Shown here piece after piece: positions 29,877-43,164 of a stretch of 64,000 bases of DNA. Each line of letters starts with the position of its first letter. The stretch's first letter is position 1. The DNA comes from Flectonema sp. DT1601 (taxonomy: Eukaryota; Euglenozoa; Diplonemea; Diplonemida; Diplonemidae), in contig OZ025794.1 of the NCBI GenBank assembly GCA_964019425.1, positions 496,001 to 560,000 on the forward strand, in the 5' to 3' direction. Below the pieces are notes generated by a model that saw nothing but the letters and a program-made list of their open reading frames with translations, searched no databases and was not told the origin of the DNA. A program made the position numbers and the translations under genes.

Positions 29877-30938
29877 ATGTCACTAAGAGCCTTAGCGGCA
29901 ATGGCGCTGGTTGGTAGCGCCGTGGGAGTGTTCGATCCGGACGTGATGAGAGTGTGCAATGTGGATGCTGATTGCCAGCTTGACGGAGACACAACAGCGA
30001 CCTGCAACCCAGAATCAGCAGCAGGAACTATCGCAACTGATATCGCTGGAATGTGCAAGTGTACGGCAACCACTCCAGCCACTACTAAAAAGATCACTAA
30101 ATCTGACCTTGTAGGTCTACCTGCTGGTGCCCAGACTATAAATCTGTGCGTACAAAGTACAGAAGATCTTGATCCTACCTCATACGCTAGACATATTGAT
30201 GTTCTTATTTTAATGACTTGGTATGAAGCACCATGCTCTGTTATTCCAGAAATCGCAGATGAGTTTTTCACCGCTAGTAGAGTTGTCCTTAACAGATACA
30301 ACAGCGGCTTTGAGTTGACTTCAATCACCAACATCACTCACACCTGTGCTGGTCTTCAGACTAACACCAGTAGCTCTATTATTAAGAACATGGGTGTTAA
30401 CACTGCCATCAGAGCAAAGTTAACTGCTGCTGACATCTTCGATGAGCGTATTGTTCTCTTCATGGACAACCTTATTAAGAAAATGGACACTGGAAAACTT
30501 CCTCTTCTTCAAAACCTTTACAAACACGAACGTGTCATCTCGGAGAAGGCTGCTGTGAGATTTTGCCCGCTTCAAACTGGTTCATTAATTATCGCTCCAT
30601 TTTCACCAGTCAACCACTTCAGTCGTACTTTTAACAACCCTGAGGACTGTCGCGCTGTTCTTTGCGCCAATGGATACTTCAACTCTAATGGTGTTTGTAC
30701 CTTAACTACTCCAACACCTCCAGTAACTGATGATGATATTGCCGACCTAGAGCCTGGTACATTCATTGCCATAGTTGCTTGCTCTGGATTTGTATTCTTG
30801 TGTGTTCTCATTATTATTATCTACTGCTGTTGTAAATGTTGCAAATCGACTGAGGAAGAGCCAACTAATGGACCAGACTCGGAATCCTCTTCCTCATCTT
30901 CTGACAAGAAGGACAAAAAGGATAAAGCAGAGATCTAA
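29877..30938 (+). CDS. Type I membrane glycoprotein, unknown (353 aa)
   Basis: Signal peptide about 1-18 (LRALAAMALVGSAVGV), a Cys-containing ectodomain with N-glycosylation sites (NITHT, NTSSS), one strong membrane segment at about 294-316 (FIAIVACSGFVFLCVLIIII), a juxtamembrane cysteine cluster (YCCCKCC) likely palmitoylated, and a short Ser/Lys/Glu tail with a poly-Ser run. Thr/Pro-rich linkers (TTPATTKK, TTPTPP) are probably O-glycosylated stalks. I do not recognise the ectodomain. Its signal peptide resembles those of the collagen-like proteins that follow, and the neighbourhood to 43.6 kb is rich in secretory proteins, so a surface role is reasonable. Confidence 0.76.
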   Translation: MSLRALAAMALVGSAVGVFDPDVMRVCNVDADCQLDGDTTATCNPESAAGTIATDIAGMCKCTATTPATTKKITKSDLVGLPAGAQTINLCVQSTEDLDPTSYARHIDVLILMTWYEAPCSVIPEIADEFFTASRVVLNRYNSGFELTSITNITHTCAGLQTNTSSSIIKNMGVNTAIRAKLTAADIFDERIVLFMDNLIKKMDTGKLPLLQNLYKHERVISEKAAVRFCPLQTGSLIIAPFSPVNHFSRTFNNPEDCRAVLCANGYFNSNGVCTLTTPTPPVTDDDIADLEPGTFIAIVACSGFVFLCVLIIIIYCCCKCCKSTEEEPTNGPDSESSSSSSDKKDKKDKAEI

Positions 30939-32568: not shown

Positions 32569-33531
32569 ATGAAGCGCGTTATTGCTATCGCTGCAGTAGG
32601 TTTCGCTGTTACAGTTGGAGCACTGGATCCATGTTCTAAACCAGTAGGGCCAGCAGCAGAAGTTTGTAAGTGTGAATGTGACAAGGGTATAGACGGTCCA
32701 CCAGGACCAGCTGGAATTCAAGGTGATGCTGGAGTTGATGGAAAACAGGGTGATCCAGGAATTGGAATTCAAGGAAAGCAAGGTCCACAAGGGCCGGATG
32801 GAGAATCAGGACCACAAGGGCCAGAAGGAGATAAAGGAAACACTGGTCCTGATGGAAACGAAGGACCTGCTGGAAACCCAGGACCTGCAGGTGAAGACGG
32901 TTTTAGGGGTTTCCCTGGATTTGACGGAGCGCCAGGACCCGAAGGTCCTCCTGGACCGCAGGGCAACCAGGGTAAGAATGGTCACAATGGAGATGATGGA
33001 TATAATGGGGATACCGGACCAGATGGTCCTACAGGACCAAAAGGTGACGATGGCCCAACTGGAGTTCCTGGCAGTCAGGGTCCGCCGGGTCCTGATGGAC
33101 CGCAGGGTACTCACTCACTTGAAGGTGGTGGCGAGAGGCACAACAACATGCAGCCATTCCTCACTATGTCTTACATCATTGCACTTACTGGAGCCTTTCC
33201 TTCTCGCACGGAGAGGGCGGCGACAACACTTGCCTCTGAACCATTCATTGGAGAGATTCGCATATTTGGGGGAAATTTTGCTCCACGTGGTTTTGTATTC
33301 TGTGATGGACAGCTGCTAACCGTTAACTCCAACCCATCACTATTCTCAATTGTTGGAACGACTTACGGGGGTGATGGCAGAACAACCTTTGGTGTTCCAG
33401 ACTTAAGAGGCCGTGTTCCCATCCAACAGGGCCTAGGAGCTGGGCTGACCAACAGGATACTCGGTTCCAAGTTTGGGCAGGAATTTGCAACTTTGTCGGA
33501 AAACACCATGCCTAATCATAATCACATTTAA
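32569..33531 (+). CDS. Secreted collagen-like protein with circularly permuted phage-tail-collar head, paralog 1 (320 aa)
   Basis: Signal peptide 1-18 ([18 protein letters not shown]), then a cysteine cluster C22, C33, C35, C37 in the frame CxKPxGPxxxxxCxCxC. About 45 Gly-X-Y triplets (residues 40-180) with one visible break (GIGIQ) form the collagen stalk. The C-terminal head has two parts. First, residues about 185-212 ([20 protein letters not shown]) match the segment that ends bacterial MdpB/tail-collar proteins. Second, about 222-320 ([40 protein letters not shown], ending MPNHNHI) match the collar domain that opens them. The order is thus reversed. The head probably trimerises and nucleates the triple helix, and the cysteines may cross-link chains. 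X/Y residues are rich in P, D, Q, K and N. Stop directly after NHNHI. Acceptor CAG at 32554. Confidence 0.9.
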
Positions 33532-33740
33532 TCTTTACATTTGTTCACGTGATTGTTTTCTATTTTCCTTTTTCTTTTTAGAAGTCAAGTTTTTTTCAGG
33601 AAAGGAAAGTTACCGTTTTTTCGTGTGCAAAAAAAAAAAAAAAATTCTCTAAGCAATCGTTTCACTACTAATTTTATTATTGTGACACAGAAAAGAAAAA
33701 AAAACAAAACAAAAACAAAAATCACGCGGTAACCATAAAG

Positions 33741-33772
33741 TATATCAGTCATTCCTTTTTTTTGCGACCAAA
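33741..33772 (+). repeat. Left terminal inverted repeat
   Basis: TATATCA-GTC-ATTCC-T8-GCGACCAAA; pairs with 35070-35100. Confidence 0.6.
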
Positions 33773-34336
33773 TTCTGGACACTGAAATTTTTTTTCAAAA
33801 AGAAATGGTAAAAGTTTCGATCGAAGCGGCATTTTAATGCGCTGCATCGTTGGGTTCATTTCCGTCCGAAATCGGGAGGTTGGCATCACATACTTGTCAC
33901 CCAAATTGAGAAAAGAGATTTTGTGGTTTACTAAATCAGCTCAGCCGTGGACAAGTACCAAAACTAAAAATTAATCGAAGGGTGTAATTTTACACTGCTG
34001 GCCCAGCGGGATCCAGAAAAAATAATCGAGCAAAAATATATTAAAGAGTACTAAGCATGTGTCGGTGAGGCAGATTGTTACTACCAGTCTTTTTGGACCT
34101 ACTTTGATACTTAATGAAAACACTTGTACAACACTTTCTTTATATGAAGTCGCAACTTATGATGAATTATGAGATAATGAAAAGTCTGAGTGTGATTGCA
34201 GGTTTGCTGCTTAACCCTTTTTATTACTGGTGTTGATGGAGGGTCCCTCTTGCACTTTGCGGCATTTCGCAAGTGCGAATAACACGTAGTGCAAATACAG
34301 TTTTCAGGGAGCTTCCTGTAGCATGCGAGATGCCAC

Positions 34337-34681
34337 CTACAGTGGCAACGAGTTGAGCCTGGTAGTTGAGCTTGGTATCCTACAAATATTCCGTGGTCTC
34401 AATGAAATGAAATATGAGTAGGATACCTCACTGCGATATTTGCAGTACTCACTCCAAGCATGTTGATACGGGTGTCTGCACCACCTCCTAAAGACTTTAA
34501 TTCTTTCCCCGTCTCTTATTATCCAGCGTTCTTTGCATGACTCGTCTGGTTCTGATGCCTCGGACATCCACCATTCGGTGATATCCTGAGTGAGGCTCTG
34601 GTTTCCTGATTTACACGTTGGTGATGGTGACACGTGACTCGGAAGCAACATTCTCAGCACGTCGAACCAATGTTTTGACAA
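34337..34681 (-). pseudogene. Transposon-derived ORF remnant (about 114 codons)
   Basis: Only minus-strand frame in the window with protein-like composition: Trp/Arg/Cys-rich, with RIKVFRRWCRHPYQHAWSEY and FISLRPRNICR. The second phrase recalls a 'SLRPRNV' stretch I remember from uncharacterised transposon proteins, which is weak evidence. The opposite orientation to every host gene, the lack of an acceptor, and the position between the inverted repeats all argue for a mobile-element relic rather than a host gene. Whether it was ever a transposase is unknown. Confidence 0.4.
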
Positions 34682-35069
34682 CTACTTCAGGGAAGCTTCC
34701 AACAAGTGGGCCATTATCACCACCACAGATGCAACATTTTCCTTACATAATTGCTACTAGGGTTGATTAGTTAGCAAAAAAGTGCATATCTCTTGAGTGC
34801 GGGAAAAAAAAAAAATAGTAAAAAAAAAATATTAGGGGTGTTTTTTACTCAGATTTTCTCGATCTTTCCATTCCAGGTCCATCATTGAGTAGTACCAAGG
34901 AAATCTTGTAAAGAGACGTTTATCTCTTTTTAGCAGCACTTACCATGTTTAAAAGTATATCCCTATGCCTAATTTTACAGATCGCACCCTCCCCGATTCC
35001 AAAAAATAAAAAATCGAGCAAAAGTAACATATCGTGTAACCTTGCTCAGGCGGTGAGAAAATGGTGTTT

Positions 35070-35100
35070 TTTGGTCGCAAAAAAAAGGAATATTGATATA
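35070..35100 (-). repeat. Right terminal inverted repeat
   Basis: Reverse complement of the left end with a two-base instead of three-base linker between the TATATCA and ATTCC blocks. Confidence 0.6.
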
Positions 35101-36391
35101 TAGTCTATCCTTTGCTGCTTGAGAGCAGTGAACAAAAATTTATACCTCTTATGTTGTTTTCACATTCGAAAGGACTGGGGGACCAGTACAAAAATTTCGA
35201 AACACAGGAATTCTTTTTTTTTAAATTTTTAATTTTTAATTTTCCTTCCCTTCTTCGTTATAATTTCTCTTCCCTTTAACCCAGGTATCAAAGTGACCCC
35301 CTATTTTTTTTTTTTTTTATTGATTTATTTTTTTAAAATTCTTTTTTTTCATACACTCCTTATTAATCATGAATCCCTTTTGCACGGCCCAGCCGAGAAA
35401 TCTGCACAATAACTATTACCTTGTTAGTAGTTGGTTATTTATATGTAAACAGCCTACAAGTGAGAAATATTGTGTGATAAGGTGACTGGGCAATATAACA
35501 CCATTGATGATACGTTTTAGGCAGAGCAGAAAATCGCGTAAGCAATTTTCTGTTTTAGCTGTTCTCTTTCCTTGTTTTCCCAATATTTCGAAAGCAATTA
35601 TGCGCGTCGCATAATAAACACAGACTCGCCAATCGCGTACTGCAACATAGGTGTTTCTCTCTCTCTATTTCAATCTTCCCTTTGAGAGGCGTGTTTTAAA
35701 TAATATTTTGAGACGTAATGATGAATCGTGATAGAGGCGAAGCAAACAAGGTTTTATTTTTGATATTCGTAAACCCCAGTAGATTTTGTCGTGGCTGTCA
35801 TTTGGTAGCCAATGAGACTATTGTCCCGGTTAGCTCAGCAGTCAGGGCAGGCTTTTCCCATCGCTCCACTTTTTCAGTTTTCTTTTCTTTCCTTTTTTTT
35901 ATTTTCTCGACCATTTATAAAAATAAACTCAAAAAAAAAAAGAAAAGATTAATCGTCTTATTAATACACATTATGGTTGGGGCTATAGAACTTTCCTTAT
36001 TAGCAATGTATGGGTCTTTGTGACTGTTTACTGCCGATTGGCATGTTACCTCTCAACATCCTACCTCTACCGTAATGCTATTCTATTCCGCAACGACTTT
36101 TTTTCGTTAGTAAGAGAAAAATGAGAAGTCTTGACTCTCGTACCAACAGAAGCCAGGTCCTCATATAGTCATTTGCAAAATTTGGGCAATCAAGGCTGCA
36201 TGCTGTGCTCGTATTTTTTTTATCCTCCCTTATTAAAAGAACTTGGATCTTGATGGAAAAGTGATTCCTAAGTTTCTACATCTGTGTACCGATTAACACT
36301 ATTCCTTTCTCAGATAGTAAGCACCGAAGACAATGCGTGTACGCGTGATAGTTGAATTACGTATATTCTCTTTCAAAGTTACGCAACACAA

Positions 36392-37357
36392 ATGAAGCGT
36401 TTCTGTGCTATTGCTGCAGTGGGACTTGCTGTAAGTGTGGGAGCAAATGACCCTTGTTGGAAACCTACTGGGCCGCACGTACCAGTTTGTCCATGTGTAT
36501 GTGACAAGGGTGATGACGGTGCAGTTGGTCCTCAAGGTCCACCAGGTGGTCAAGGTGATGAAGGTCCAAAAGGTATTGAGGGATTAGGAGCAGATGGAGA
36601 GCAGGGTCCACCGGGACAGCAAGGGCCACAAGGAATACTTGGACCAGAGGGACCAAAGGGTAACACGGGAGCGCAAGGTCAAGAGGGAGCTCAGGGACCC
36701 GACGGTCCGAAAGGAATGCCAGGTGGCAAGGGACAAAATGGATTACCTGGGGTGGATGGAGACAAAGGACCGGATGGTCCCCAGGGAATTCCGGGTGCCC
36801 GCGGTATAGATGGAAGCGACGGACTCATCGGAGACCAGGGGGATCAGGGATTACCTGGACTAATAGGTGATGATGGACCACCTGGCGATGTGGGTCCTAC
36901 AGGACCTATTGGGAATGATGGGCCTGCTGGAACACCTCCTGTTGCAAAGGGAGGTTCACAAGCTTTCTCAAACATGCAGCCTTCCCTTGCTATTAATTTC
37001 ATTATAGCGTTACAAGGAACTCTTCCATCAACCACCGCAAGGGGCGTGGAAACTCAGGGCTCGGAACCCTACATTGGAGAGATACGCATGTTTGCAGGAA
37101 ACTTTGCTCCGAGGGGCTGGATGTTCTGCGATGGGCAGTTGCTAGCAATTTCAAATCACGGATCATTATTTTCAATCATCGGTGGGGTTTACGGTGGTGA
37201 TTTCCAAACCACATTTGCTCTTCCAGACTTTCGCGGACGCGCCGCTATGCATGCAGGTCTTAATGGTATTGGTGTAACTCCTAGATCTCGTGGTAATGTA
37301 GGTGGTACTGAAACGGTGACGTTGGATGTGGATAACTTGCCAAATCACGATCACTAA
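36392..37357 (+). CDS. Secreted collagen-like protein with permuted tail-collar head, paralog 2 (321 aa)
   Basis: Same plan as paralog 1. Signal peptide MKRFCAIAAVGLAVSVGA; cysteines C22, C33, C35, C37 within CWKPTGP and VCPCVCD; Gly-X-Y stalk from about residue 40 to 185 with several breaks (GLGADGEQG, GGKG). The head begins with SQAFSNMQPSLAINFIIALQ (bacterial C-terminal segment), then SEPYIGEIRMFAGNFAPRGW, GGVYGGDFQTTFALPDFRGR, and ends LPNHDH. Here the second half is especially close to bacterial MdpB-type proteins (FAPRGWMFCDGQLL). The head keeps the single Cys in FCDGQLL common to all three. Lies 2.9 kb after paralog 1, with the candidate transposon between them. Confidence 0.9.
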   Translation: MKRFCAIAAVGLAVSVGANDPCWKPTGPHVPVCPCVCDKGDDGAVGPQGPPGGQGDEGPKGIEGLGADGEQGPPGQQGPQGILGPEGPKGNTGAQGQEGAQGPDGPKGMPGGKGQNGLPGVDGDKGPDGPQGIPGARGIDGSDGLIGDQGDQGLPGLIGDDGPPGDVGPTGPIGNDGPAGTPPVAKGGSQAFSNMQPSLAINFIIALQGTLPSTTARGVETQGSEPYIGEIRMFAGNFAPRGWMFCDGQLLAISNHGSLFSIIGGVYGGDFQTTFALPDFRGRAAMHAGLNGIGVTPRSRGNVGGTETVTLDVDNLPNHDH

Positions 37358-37537
37358 GTTTAATTTGCTCTGGAGTTTTTTGCCACTCTTACGTATAACA
37401 TGAAAAAAAGTCAGAAGGTTACTCGTATTACTTGGTCTCTTTTTTCCCCCCCTCCTTGGCGCATCCAACCTAACAAGTGTGCTTCTATAAACGTGACCTC
37501 TTCACCTTGGTTAGCTCGTTCCGAGCTCATGCCGACC

Positions 37538-37579
37538 TACCTCGTTTCCTCACGAAAGTACCTCGTTTCCTCACGAAAG
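37538..37579 (+). repeat. Exact 21-bp tandem duplication
   Basis: Two head-to-tail copies of a unit starting TACCTCGTTTCC and ending CACGAAAG, in the 3' region of paralog 2. Confidence 0.9.
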
Positions 37580-38333
37580 TAGGGAATTTTTTTTTTTTGA
37601 ATTTTTATTTTAGTAATTTAGAATTTTACAAAAAAAAATAAAAAAAAATAAAAAGAACTCTATAATTACTGATAAAGTAATTGATATTACAGCCTGCGTC
37701 CATTAATTTTTTTTTTTCTTTCTCTCGCCCCTGACATCAGGGCGGGGGGTTTTCTAAAAAAAGATATCTCGCTCATCTCAAGAGCTCAGTAGACACGTTT
37801 GGATAGTGGAGAAAAAAGAAAAAAAGAAGGAAAAAAAAAACGGGATTGAAAGACATAAATCTGTAGTACTTCACATTTAGTTTCAATTCGAGCTCCAATC
37901 GGCACTACATGTGCTGATACTAAGTTGTTGATTTTTGTTTTCTCTTCCTCTCCTCCTTTCCCCGTTTTATTTAATACTGTAGAAGGTTGCTTCGAGTCAC
38001 CGCTTGTATTCCAACGCAATGTTTTCGATTTTTATTGCTATTCAGCGGGTTGAAACATCACACGGTGGAAAGTGTGTTTTCACTCTCATTCTGCTACAGT
38101 CGATTACAGCCTGTAACTTTGCTCATTGGTGCACTCGCAAAAACCGTTTTTTTTGCATCATTCCTTTAAAAAAAAAAAAAAAAAATCCACTGATACAATT
38201 CATATTTAAATCATAAAATAAAATAAAATAATCTTTTCCCACTAAAATCTTTCCCCGTTCTTTTTTAACCCCTTCCTTTTCTTTTTATTAAAACAATAAG
38301 TAACTAAATTGTTACCGTTGAAATGCAGGTTAG

Positions 38334-38381
38334 CACCGTAGATTGCATACAAATACAGGCCTGTAATTGTATGTATCGGTG
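38334..38381. repeat. Imperfect palindrome, about 20-bp stem
   Basis: Centred on ACAGGCCTGT. Outer arms CACCG/CGGTG pair exactly. Inner arms CATACAA and TTGTATG pair, with an A/A mismatch near the centre and a small left-hand bulge. Could be a hairpin in RNA or a protein-binding site. Confidence 0.65.
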
Positions 38382-39276
38382 TCTTAGATAATGGCATAAA
38401 CCTGTAAGAAGAAGAAGAAGAAGGAAAAAAAAAAAAAAAAAAAAAGCTGTTGCTTTGCGATCAAAAGTTTTTTTTAAAAGAAACAAATGAGGTAAAGCAA
38501 GTGCAACACCACTCCCTTGAATCACGGCCCTATTAGCTGGCGCCTAGTCATTAATTCCTCCCGAATCCCTTCGTTTGAAGAACTGAGCCTCTTACAGTAG
38601 GTGAAGTACCAATTCAGCGTTATGTTTATTTTAATATATCATTAGTATTATTATTAATTTTTTCACCCCCGTTTTCATTTTTTTTTTTCCTCTTTTTTTT
38701 TCGCAGTGCTATCTCGATAACGTCCGGTGTTTGCTTTTCGGCTGCAAAACATTTTAATGATTTTTTAGTTTTCTGCGTTGCTCAGGGCGAATTCGAGTTT
38801 TTTTTTTTCTTCGAGACTTAGAATGGGATATAATCTGGTGTCTCATATGGTCCAAAAAAGTAAGTTCTTTTTAGGTGAAGGCAGCTAGTAGTGTTTTACG
38901 AGAAAGGTTCATACAACCTTCTGCGTCAACTTCTAACTGACAGTTGGCACGGAAACCTAGGCGGTGACAGAATTTAGACGAGACTAGAACTCAACTAGCA
39001 GCTTAAGCGGATCTGAGAAAGCCTTTCCCTCCACCAAGACCCCAATTAAATTCTTCGTTTTGAAAAAGCAAGTAACGCTGCACTTTTTGTTTTTTTATTT
39101 CTGCTTTTAGTTTGCAAAATATAAGGATTATTTTTAAGGCACAGGTTTATGTATTGGTCAGTGAGAGAGTAGCCAAAATATCAGTAGTTGTATACAGACT
39201 ATTCTTATGATGTTGTTGAGGTGGTTGTTGTTCATTAAATTCTTATAAATTCAGATATTATCGGGAAATAAAAAAA

Positions 39277-40239
39277 ATGAGGCAACTCTGCGCACTTGCG
39301 GCGATGGGTCTAGCTGTTTCTGTGGGTGCTGATCCGACATTATGTTGGAAGCCAACCGGACCGAGCTATCCTCTTTGTAAGTGCAACTGCGAGCCTGGTG
39401 ATGTGGGACAACAAGGTCCTCAGGGATTGCAAGGAGGTGAGGGACCTCAAGGAGTTAATGGTGATTCTGTTAAGGGACCAACTGGACCTCCAGGACCACA
39501 GGGCCCGGATGGAATTGAGGGACAGCAAGGACCGCAGGGACCTGATGGAGATCAAGGTTCACCAGGACCTGCAGGTGCTGATGGTGATCGGGGAAAGATG
39601 GGAAAGGATGGTCCGGATGGTGACGATGGTCCGGATGGATCCCAAGGTCCCGTGGGAGACATGGGACCAGTCGGAAATGATGGAGCAGACGGTCAACAAG
39701 GCCTCGATGGAGCAGAGGGACCTGCGGGAGGAGTTGGTCCAAAAGGACAAATTGGAAACGCTGGAAGTACCGGCTCAGTAGGTCCGCAAGGAGCAACAGG
39801 AAATCCAGGACCATCTGGCATCGTGGCAGAGGGTCGCAGTACTCCTTTCAATAATGTGCAGCCATTCGGTGTCGTTAATTACATCATCGCTATTTCTGGA
39901 ACATTCCCTTCACGAAATGAAAGAGAAGCATCTACGTTAGGATTGTCTGAGATCCTTGGAGATATTTCGATGTTTGCTGGGACGTTTGCTCCAGCTAATT
40001 ATGCTTTTTGTGATGGTCAACTACTTCCAATAAATAACAACCAGGGTTTGTTTTCTTTACTCGGTACAACTTATGGAGGCAATGGACGTACTACTTTCGG
40101 TCTTCCTGACCTTCGCAGTCGTGTTCCTATCCACCGCGGGCAAGGTGCTGGATTGACTAACAGAAGGTTGGGATCATTCGGTGGTGAAGAGACACACACC
40201 CTTGAAATAAATGAGATGCCAAGACATGACCACTTTTAG
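39277..40239 (+). CDS. Secreted collagen-like protein with permuted tail-collar head, paralog 3 (320 aa)
   Basis: Signal peptide MRQLCALAAMGLAVSVGA, cysteines at about C23, C34, C36, C38 (CWKPTGP, LCKCNCEPG), and a Gly-X-Y stalk from about residue 40 to 183, rich in GPQGPDG, GDDGPDG and GADGQQG. Head: STPFNNVQPFGVVNYIIAIS then FPSRNERE, then LSEILGDISMFAGTFAPANY, GTTYGGNGRTTFGLPDLRSR, ending MPRHDHF. The head is the most diverged at the junction (LSEILGDIS instead of SEPFIGEI) but the permuted order is the same. Stop directly after the MPxHxH block, as in the other two. Encodes a separate gene, not a continuation: 1.9 kb and an acceptor separate it from paralog 2. Confidence 0.9.
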   Translation: MRQLCALAAMGLAVSVGADPTLCWKPTGPSYPLCKCNCEPGDVGQQGPQGLQGGEGPQGVNGDSVKGPTGPPGPQGPDGIEGQQGPQGPDGDQGSPGPAGADGDRGKMGKDGPDGDDGPDGSQGPVGDMGPVGNDGADGQQGLDGAEGPAGGVGPKGQIGNAGSTGSVGPQGATGNPGPSGIVAEGRSTPFNNVQPFGVVNYIIAISGTFPSRNEREASTLGLSEILGDISMFAGTFAPANYAFCDGQLLPINNNQGLFSLLGTTYGGNGRTTFGLPDLRSRVPIHRGQGAGLTNRRLGSFGGEETHTLEINEMPRHDHF

Positions 40240-41646: not shown

Positions 41647-43164
41647 ATGATGAAGGCAGCGACGGCAATTTTGCTGTCCCTGTGTATGATCACAGAAGGT
41701 GTAATTCATGGTGGAAAAGTTGACTTAACATGGACTGAGAAGAAGAATGATTGGGGTAAGCTGGGTGTTTTTGGTTATGGTGAACAAGGCGGGTGTAAAG
41801 TAAAAGTTAAAAGACAAGAAGACAGCGGTGATTTAGTAATTCACAAAAAGGGATCAACCGACGGTATTGGTTTTATGTTTAAAAAGATGGCAACAACAGA
41901 AGACCCAAAAGCGGACGGTCTCCTCGCTAAAATATGCACAGGAGGAGAACTAAACTACAACGAGAAGATGCTATCACTTGAACCAGTAACTGACGACCCT
42001 GACTGGGACTACTCAGGTATTGCAACCTTCACTGAAGATCCGGGTTTTTGGTGGCTTCTTATCTACGAATGTGATTCAAGTTTGAATGCAACTGCGAATG
42101 CAACAATTAGAGAAGCGCATACATTAGATGGTGGAGATGACAATAAAGATAACAAAGACAATAAAGACAACAAAGACAATAAAGACAACAAAGACAATAA
42201 AGACAATAAAGACAACAAAGACAATAAAGACAACAACGACAACAAAGACAATAAAGACAACAAAGACAATAAAGACAACAACGACAACAAAGACAATAAA
42301 GGAAACAAAGAAAACAAAGCAGATGATACTAAAGAAGACAACACAGCAGCTCCAGTACCTACTGGAGCAGCACCAGTACCTACTGGTTCTCCCCCAAAGG
42401 ATAATCGACCTGTAAGAATTAAGATAAAATATTCTGAATACAATATGGATGGAGGAGTTAAGAATTATCTTCAAGTCGGAGACAATCAACTTCCGCTGAT
42501 ATTCTTAGTATTCGCACTGTTACATACTGCAGCAGCTGTGAAGTGGGGAATGTGGATGAAAGAAAACAAAGAACACGTCAGTAAGATCCATTTCCTTATG
42601 GGATTCTTCTTACTGCTGAAGGCAGGGTCACTCTTCTTTGAGTTTCTGAGATATCACTACTACAAAGATCACGGTAGCGAAGCTTCTTTTTATGATGTGA
42701 TGTACTATTGTTTCCTGGCAATGAAGGCGACAATCTTATTTACTGTCATCGTGTTAATTAGTTCTGGTTGGTCAATTCTCAAACCCCACCTCCAAACTAG
42801 AGATCGAAACATTCTCTTAGCGATTATCCCCTTACAGATATTAAACAACATTCTTGGGGTTTACGTAGATCATAAGAAGGAATATGATAGCAGTTGGAGA
42901 GAAGGTGAGGTATGGATCTTAAATTTAAGCGATTTTTCTAAATTTTTTTTAAATTTTTTTTTCAAAAAATAACTTAACAACAGGATATCGTCAAATTGGT
43001 AAATCTAATTTCATGTGTGTTGGTTGTGTTCCCAATCGCGTGGAGTATGAAAAATCTCAAAAACGCTGAAGCAGGAGGAGCTGTTGCTAAGAACTGGGTG
43101 CGCATGAAGCAGGTTTGCATTGTTTTTTTATTCACTTCCAAAAAAAAAAAAAAAAGTTTCTAAG

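Follow-up and report, generated by a model that had tools for sequence, protein, structure and literature searches.

Circularly permuted tail-collar heads on collagen stalks in three paralogs of a euglenozoan genome, with counterparts in prokaryotes

An N-terminal segment, a collagen rod and a C-terminal trimeric head make up the layout of collectins, ficolins, C1q, Scl, Lcl and BclA. In the short tail fibre protein gp12 of phage T4, histidines bind metal on the trimer axis and a large receptor-binding insert follows the PxHxH motif. The 64-kb stretch of DNA analysed here (contig OZ025794.1, positions 496,001 to 560,000; hereafter the window, with positions counted from its first letter) carries three tandem genes whose products join a Gly-X-Y stalk to a head of the microcystin-dependent/tail-collar family. 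Judged from their sequences, these heads are circularly permuted relative to that family, with the NNMQP block (A), which is C-terminal in native proteins, placed ahead of the collar block that runs to PxHxH (B). The account considered probable, a trimerising head included, is that a prokaryotic gene for collagen plus permuted head, already assembled and secreted, was acquired by a euglenozoan, probably a diplonemid, and duplicated to three copies.

The domain order in all three proteins was a signal peptide (by eye), a cysteine (Cys) box, a Gly-X-Y stalk, the A block, a short linker and the B block, and the order given in the initial annotation was recovered in 3/3 by the Pfam scan, by profiles and by triplet counts. 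The native profile was derived from 30 bacterial proteins with the native order (B then A), and its columns were re-ordered to give the A-B profile. The native profile matched each head only as two pieces in reversed order (3/3), and the larger piece alone scored 172.9, 146.1 and 153.8 bits for paralogs 1-3. The re-ordered profile matched in one piece at positions 1-127 of 127 with 199.2, 167.7 and 174.3 bits; the comparison of native and un-permuted order proposed in the initial annotation hence gave an end-to-end match in one piece only after A-B re-ordering. It counts to the contrary that the two native pieces of paralog 1 summed to 209.4 bits, not below its one-piece score, and the case for permutation therefore rests on the order and the end-to-end fit rather than on total bits. 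Both family blocks were present in 3/3 (A 41.1-58.1 bits, B 137.0-161.0 bits), and the paralogs read A, linker, B in 3/3 instead of the native order of B, insert, A. The paralog heads lack the segment that native proteins insert between PxHxH and A (40 residues in P0226). A model of the A block alone, made from bacterial native-order proteins, picked exactly the three paralogs out of 684 stop-to-stop frames of at least 40 amino acids (aa) in the window (E 1.2e-17 to 2.3e-12; next best 0.15), so the A blocks are not chance matches. As first annotated, the proteins stop at the new cut point: the stop codon lies 0 or 1 residue past the last His of PxHxH in all three paralogs, and no downstream continuation or hidden native A exon was seen by eye in the three forward frames of ~0.9 kb past each stop.

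The three genes are uninterrupted, intronless open reading frames (ORFs) on the plus strand, of 320, 321 and 320 aa, with the following features (coding sequences include the stop codon).

32569..33531, +, paralog 1 coding sequence, 320 aa (ORF list, Pfam scan)
32569..32622, +, paralog 1 putative signal peptide, residues 1-18 (by eye)
32626..32679, +, paralog 1 Cys box, residues 20-37 (box in 5/346 fetched proteins)
32686..33114, +, paralog 1 Gly-X-Y stalk, residues 40-182, 47 triplets with one break (Pfam scan, triplet count)
33124..33207, +, paralog 1 A block, equal to the native C-terminal block, residues 186-213 (58.1 bits, native-protein model)
33208..33234, +, paralog 1 linker TERAATTLA, joining the former C- and N-termini (gap between A and B matches)
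33235..33525, +, paralog 1 B block, collar to PxHxH, residues 223-319 (Pfam, profile match)
36392..37357, +, paralog 2 coding sequence, 321 aa (ORF list, Pfam scan)
36449..36502, +, paralog 2 Cys box, residues 20-37 (box in 5/346 fetched proteins)
36509..36937, +, paralog 2 Gly-X-Y stalk, residues 40-182 (triplet count)
36950..37030, +, paralog 2 A block, residues 187-213 (45.1 bits, native-protein model)
37061..37354, +, paralog 2 B block, residues 224-321 (Pfam, profile match)
39277..40239, +, paralog 3 coding sequence, 320 aa (ORF list, Pfam scan)
39331..39390, +, paralog 3 Cys box, residues 19-38 (box in 5/346 fetched proteins)
39397..39825, +, paralog 3 Gly-X-Y stalk, residues 41-183 (triplet count)
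39838..39918, +, paralog 3 A block, residues 188-214 (41.1 bits, native-protein model)
39952..40233, +, paralog 3 B block, residues 226-319 (Pfam, profile match)

The Cys box of each paralog contains four Cys in the pattern CX10CXCXC. Each stalk has 47 Gly-X-Y triplets with a single break at a near-identical site (9+38, 9+38 and 8+39), and Pro occupied X in 32-40% and Y in 6-17% of the triplets. The Pfam scan of the paralogs gave Collar (PF07484, 87.8-93.3 bits vs a curated cut-off of 24) and Collagen (PF01391, 70.0-79.3 bits vs a cut-off of 27.2) in 3/3 and these families alone, with no C-type lectin, fibrinogen-like or C1q head of the collectin, ficolin or C1q kind. Pairwise identity was 52-54% overall and 50-59% in the heads, and the proportion of non-synonymous differences (pN, 0.29-0.41) was lower than that of synonymous differences (pS, 0.63-0.81) in every paralog comparison. 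At this level of identity, with synonymous differences close to saturated or past it and non-synonymous change lower, the paralogs look old and maintained.

Relatives were collected by three database searches with the best 120 listed from each, for which the 8000 candidates sharing most words were scored, and 346 proteins were fetched. The best head matches among those listed reached 482 bits, vs 301 bits for the window protein itself. The top matches P0001, P0003, P0009 and P0020 were bacterial secreted proteins with three A-B units behind a signal peptide; PF07589 (PEP-CTERM) was precomputed for several three-unit proteins, and the PEP-CTERM-type tail of P0001 was seen by eye only and not found by the model search. 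Single A-B heads ended the Bacteroidota proteins L028, L033 and L035, and L186 and L190, also drawn from the Bacteroidota phylum sample, had single A-B heads too. Collagen-stalked single A-B proteins were identified in the archaea Methanolobus sp. WCC4 (P0264) and Methanococcoides orientis (P0278), and P0178, many metagenome proteins and L008 of a Verrucomicrobia metagenome-assembled genome are of this form too; L008 has its N-terminal part spread across two frames, and its neighbouring genes look bacterial (sulfatase-like and subtilisin-type protease-like, by eye). Matches at E ≤1e-30 occurred in 18/387 genomes of the phylum sample of L008 and in 65/395 genomes of that of L035, counting both orders and with at most 8 candidates scored per genome. 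In the phylum of L008, the frames L156, L163 and L165, of 2276, 1715 and 1760 aa, contained internal A-B-A-B-A-B arrays.

Single A-B proteins made up 45/346 of the fetched proteins, one of which (P0127) appears to be a partial multi-unit protein. A Gly-X-Y run of at least 24 aa was present in 38/45 of them (three being the window's own) and a run of 24 aa in 0/152 fetched native-order single proteins, a difference that overstates the link between collagen and the A-B order since the third search was seeded with collagen plus an A-B head and admitted only 0.55-1.75 times the length. The window proteins have what defines this set, namely a Gly-X-Y stalk, one A-B head and an end near PxHxH, with secretion judged by eye. 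Proteins with a collagen rod and a permuted tail-collar head as its cap make up a wider group, apparently unnamed, with members in archaea, bacteria and a euglenozoan. No description of a permuted collagen-borne collar form was found in the literature, with most subscription journals lying outside the search. The initial annotation had taken the combination for a new eukaryotic architecture; this does not hold, since the A-B order, a near-identical cut point and the same stalk type occur in archaea, bacteria and metagenomes.

The host genome (89.5 Mb, 92 contigs) contained 718 matches to the euglenozoan spliced-leader core and 0 in the reversed control, and the host is euglenozoan. The leader ACCAACGATTCTAAAGCTACAGTTTCTGTACTTTATTG was found at three isolated loci. 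It is close to the entry 'Euglenozoa 14' in the table of PMC3795323, where AACCAACGATTTAAAAGCTACAGTTTCTGTACTTTATTG is listed under that name beside leaders beginning AACT, and was not found in PMC2663770 and PMC2664479. Regular arrays of the spliced-leader core were observed at G000:C16:1432461-1446807 and at G000:C20 from 1248666, with periods of ~623 and 610 bp, among the places listed. The host is probably a diplonemid. Collar matches in this genome numbered 3 and no other collar gene was found; a search for further Cys-box N-termini likewise gave 3 matches, the three paralogs themselves. The collagen model gave 22 matches. As possible fusion donors, the C9 matches turned out to be GYD/GMT repeats, C37 a 15-residue GPPGVVGVFGTVGFV-type repeat, C17 antisense to a formin-type Pro-rich frame, and C18 a short GAD/GTD repeat within a large membrane protein. 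L123 (1-3033, minus strand) encodes a large membrane protein with N-terminal GAD/GTD and ADAN repeats that scored as collagen. A comparable collagen gene was not found in the host genome, where a weak match on C16, under the cut-off, was left unread. Genes adjoining the paralogs in the window look protist-type. Positions 41647-42972 encode a GOST-type transmembrane protein in which a long Asp-Asn-Lys repeat precedes the membrane part, and 29877-30938, just upstream of the three genes, a secreted-looking protein with a C-terminal transmembrane-like stretch and no Pfam match.

For the origin of the permuted order, 80 loci listed (L007-L086) were surveyed with an A-B query, which may favour tandem genes. 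Native microcystin-dependent genes were in tandem in 76/80 of them, and the next B block started a median of 21 nucleotides (nt) past the stop codon (153 adjacent pairs); 101 of the 150 gaps of ≤200 nt were in frame. Duplication plus truncation is a plausible route to the permutation because native genes lie head to tail about 21 nt apart, and loss of one stop codon between them would give A-linker-B directly. Most simply, the permuted order would have arisen in prokaryotes by fusion of neighbouring native genes through stop loss, after which the outer B and A would have been trimmed to leave the permuted unit, with the variable insert between PxHxH and NNMQP lost as well. Of the history first suggested, duplication and truncation followed by fusion to collagen, the route is thereby kept; the fusion in a eukaryote is unsupported, because prokaryotes carry the same stalk and head and no host collagen donor was found.

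In the eukaryotic lineage, the CX10CXCXC box was present in 5/346 fetched proteins, which are the three paralogs, the EukProt protein P0256 and P0265 (on an ENA contig of 1.37 Mb), with shorter stalks in the two relatives (24 triplets in P0256, ~6 in P0265). A head tree was computed from 133 columns and 89/118 rows, with multi-unit and native rows subsampled twice. Holding the five Cys-box heads as one clade was not rejected by the approximately unbiased test (p-AU 0.586) and gave a likelihood 11.2 units higher, a result that fits a single transfer. Acquisition of the permuted collagen-borne form by the eukaryote is most likely, rather than its invention there, because the same form exists in bacteria and archaea.

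The euglenozoan would have taken the ready-made secreted gene from a prokaryote, and the gene would then have been duplicated into three tandem copies. In the proposed product, three chains would meet through the C-terminal head, and the PxHxH histidines would bind metal on the trimer axis by analogy with T4 gp12. As the stalk now enters beside the PxHxH site, the head may act as a compact cap that trimerises the chains and initiates the triple helix at the C-terminal end of the helix. The N-terminal Cys box would link trimers through disulfides, and the secreted product would take the form of a rod or bouquet and serve in matrix, adhesion or prey capture. A broader proposal is offered tentatively: the permuted head may be a compact, metal-locked C-terminal cap for collagen folding that evolved from tandem tail-collar genes on one or more occasions, shed its receptor insert on re-cutting, spread among archaea and bacteria and into one eukaryotic lineage or more, and with the Cys box forms a secreted collectin-like bouquet in the latter.

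Several observations weigh against this account. The head tree is weak on the direction of transfer and on the donor, with 4/86 inner branches starred, and the unconstrained quick tree placed the five Cys-box heads in two places. The excess of in-frame gaps between native genes was not general (5/17 in L155-L180 and 17/28 in L181-L209). The viral contig L091 carries a native-order head with a Gly-X-Y stalk upstream. Third-position GC in the head of paralog 1 was 0.435 and thus higher than in 19 other ORFs of the window (0.26-0.40). A leader of the 'Euglenozoa 14' type is presumably that of Diplonema, and the host leader copies that were read are the isolated ones. On the favourable side the end is conserved: HxH was present within the last 45 residues in 40/45 A-B proteins, and with 44 proteins listed the last HxH lay 0-6 residues from the C-terminus in 37/39 of those bearing one; a terminal HxH was missing in 5/45 (P0281, P0287, P0304, P0322 and P0343), and the metal site, if it matters, is therefore not universal. 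All of these five except P0287 end soon past a conserved G-G-x-E region, three of them in a single His. In L091, ~120 residues of GPTGATG-type repeats precede the head, and its A block is at the extreme C-terminus.

Among the alternatives, a head that serves chiefly for ligand binding, making the proteins secreted lectin-like capture molecules (opsonin or prey-adhesion bouquets) instead of structural rods, is somewhat unlikely. The Cys box, collagen and C-terminal head are laid out as in collectins, phage collar proteins are parts of tail fibres, and the three heads have diverged; the segment that is receptor-binding in T4 gp12, the insert after PxHxH, is absent from the window heads. The feeding habits reported for the group also point this way, since PMC10161547 suggests that D. 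papillatum is predatory and that a few diplonemid species seem bacterivorous. The same source describes diplonemid nutrition and ecology as little known, and the words collagen and collar are absent from its main text.

Strand exchange within the trimer, with each A block filling out the collar of an adjacent chain instead of its own, is doubtful. The sequence cannot show which chain supplies the A block, which leaves room for it; a single A-B chain always carries one copy of each block, and no tested point favours exchange. With one of each block per chain, the closed unit is therefore permuted at the level of the chain either way. An independent fusion, in which the eukaryote gained the permuted head alone and joined it to a home-grown collagen stalk, is quite improbable: the lack of the Cys box in the other 341 fetched proteins and the Gly-X-Y-like simple repeats elsewhere in the host genome speak for it, and against it stand the failure to find a comparable host collagen gene and the prokaryotic proteins in which this head, ending at almost the same place, is already joined to collagen. 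Bacterial contamination of the assembly is scarcely credible even though the best head matches are prokaryotic or metagenomic, as the genes stand in a row with protist-type genes such as that of the GOST-type membrane protein, the three whole genes have a third-position GC of 0.315-0.329, inside the range of the 19 window ORFs, and their Cys box is shared with P0256 from EukProt.

A naturally permuted trimer domain borne on collagen stalks in archaea, bacteria and a eukaryote would provide a new kind of nucleation cap for collagen, of use in making recombinant collagens. It would also be an instance of circular permutation in which the likely genetic intermediate, native genes ~21 nt apart, can still be seen, and might be a secreted molecule for capture or matrix in a lineage of euglenozoans, probably the diplonemids.

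In comparison with known systems, collectins, ficolins, C1q, Scl, Lcl and BclA resemble the window proteins in layout only and have unrelated heads, and matches of the window stalks to Scl and Lcl models were far under the cut-offs. The collar regions of two phage fibres, T4 gp12 (1ocy, E 4e-5) and the long tail fiber 8kec (E 1e-9), matched the A-B profile. Phage records matching the head numbered 505, all with <60% identity, of which 39 covered ≥80% of the query. Native order also occurs in phage-type tails: PHROG tail families align the native protein P0129 in that order, almost to the last residues of the phage protein (phrog_1800, 392-543 of 545), and the head of viral contig L091 has it too. 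Native microcystin-dependent/tail fiber proteins (PF07484; P0129, P0226) have both blocks, PxHxH and NNMQP in common with the window heads, and P0129 showed 70% identity over 70% of the paralog 1 head; they differ in reading B, insert (40 residues in P0226), A. The three-unit bacterial proteins (P0001 etc.) are like the window heads in their A-B units, which start soon past the signal peptide, and in a last unit that closes at PxHxH plus an anchor tail; they differ in having three units, no collagen, and a tail of the PEP-CTERM type. P0264, P0278, P0178 and L008 differ in their N-terminal segments, the fetched ones being without the CX10CXCXC box, and are like the paralogs in carrying a stalk and one A-B head that ends within ~20 residues of PxHxH.

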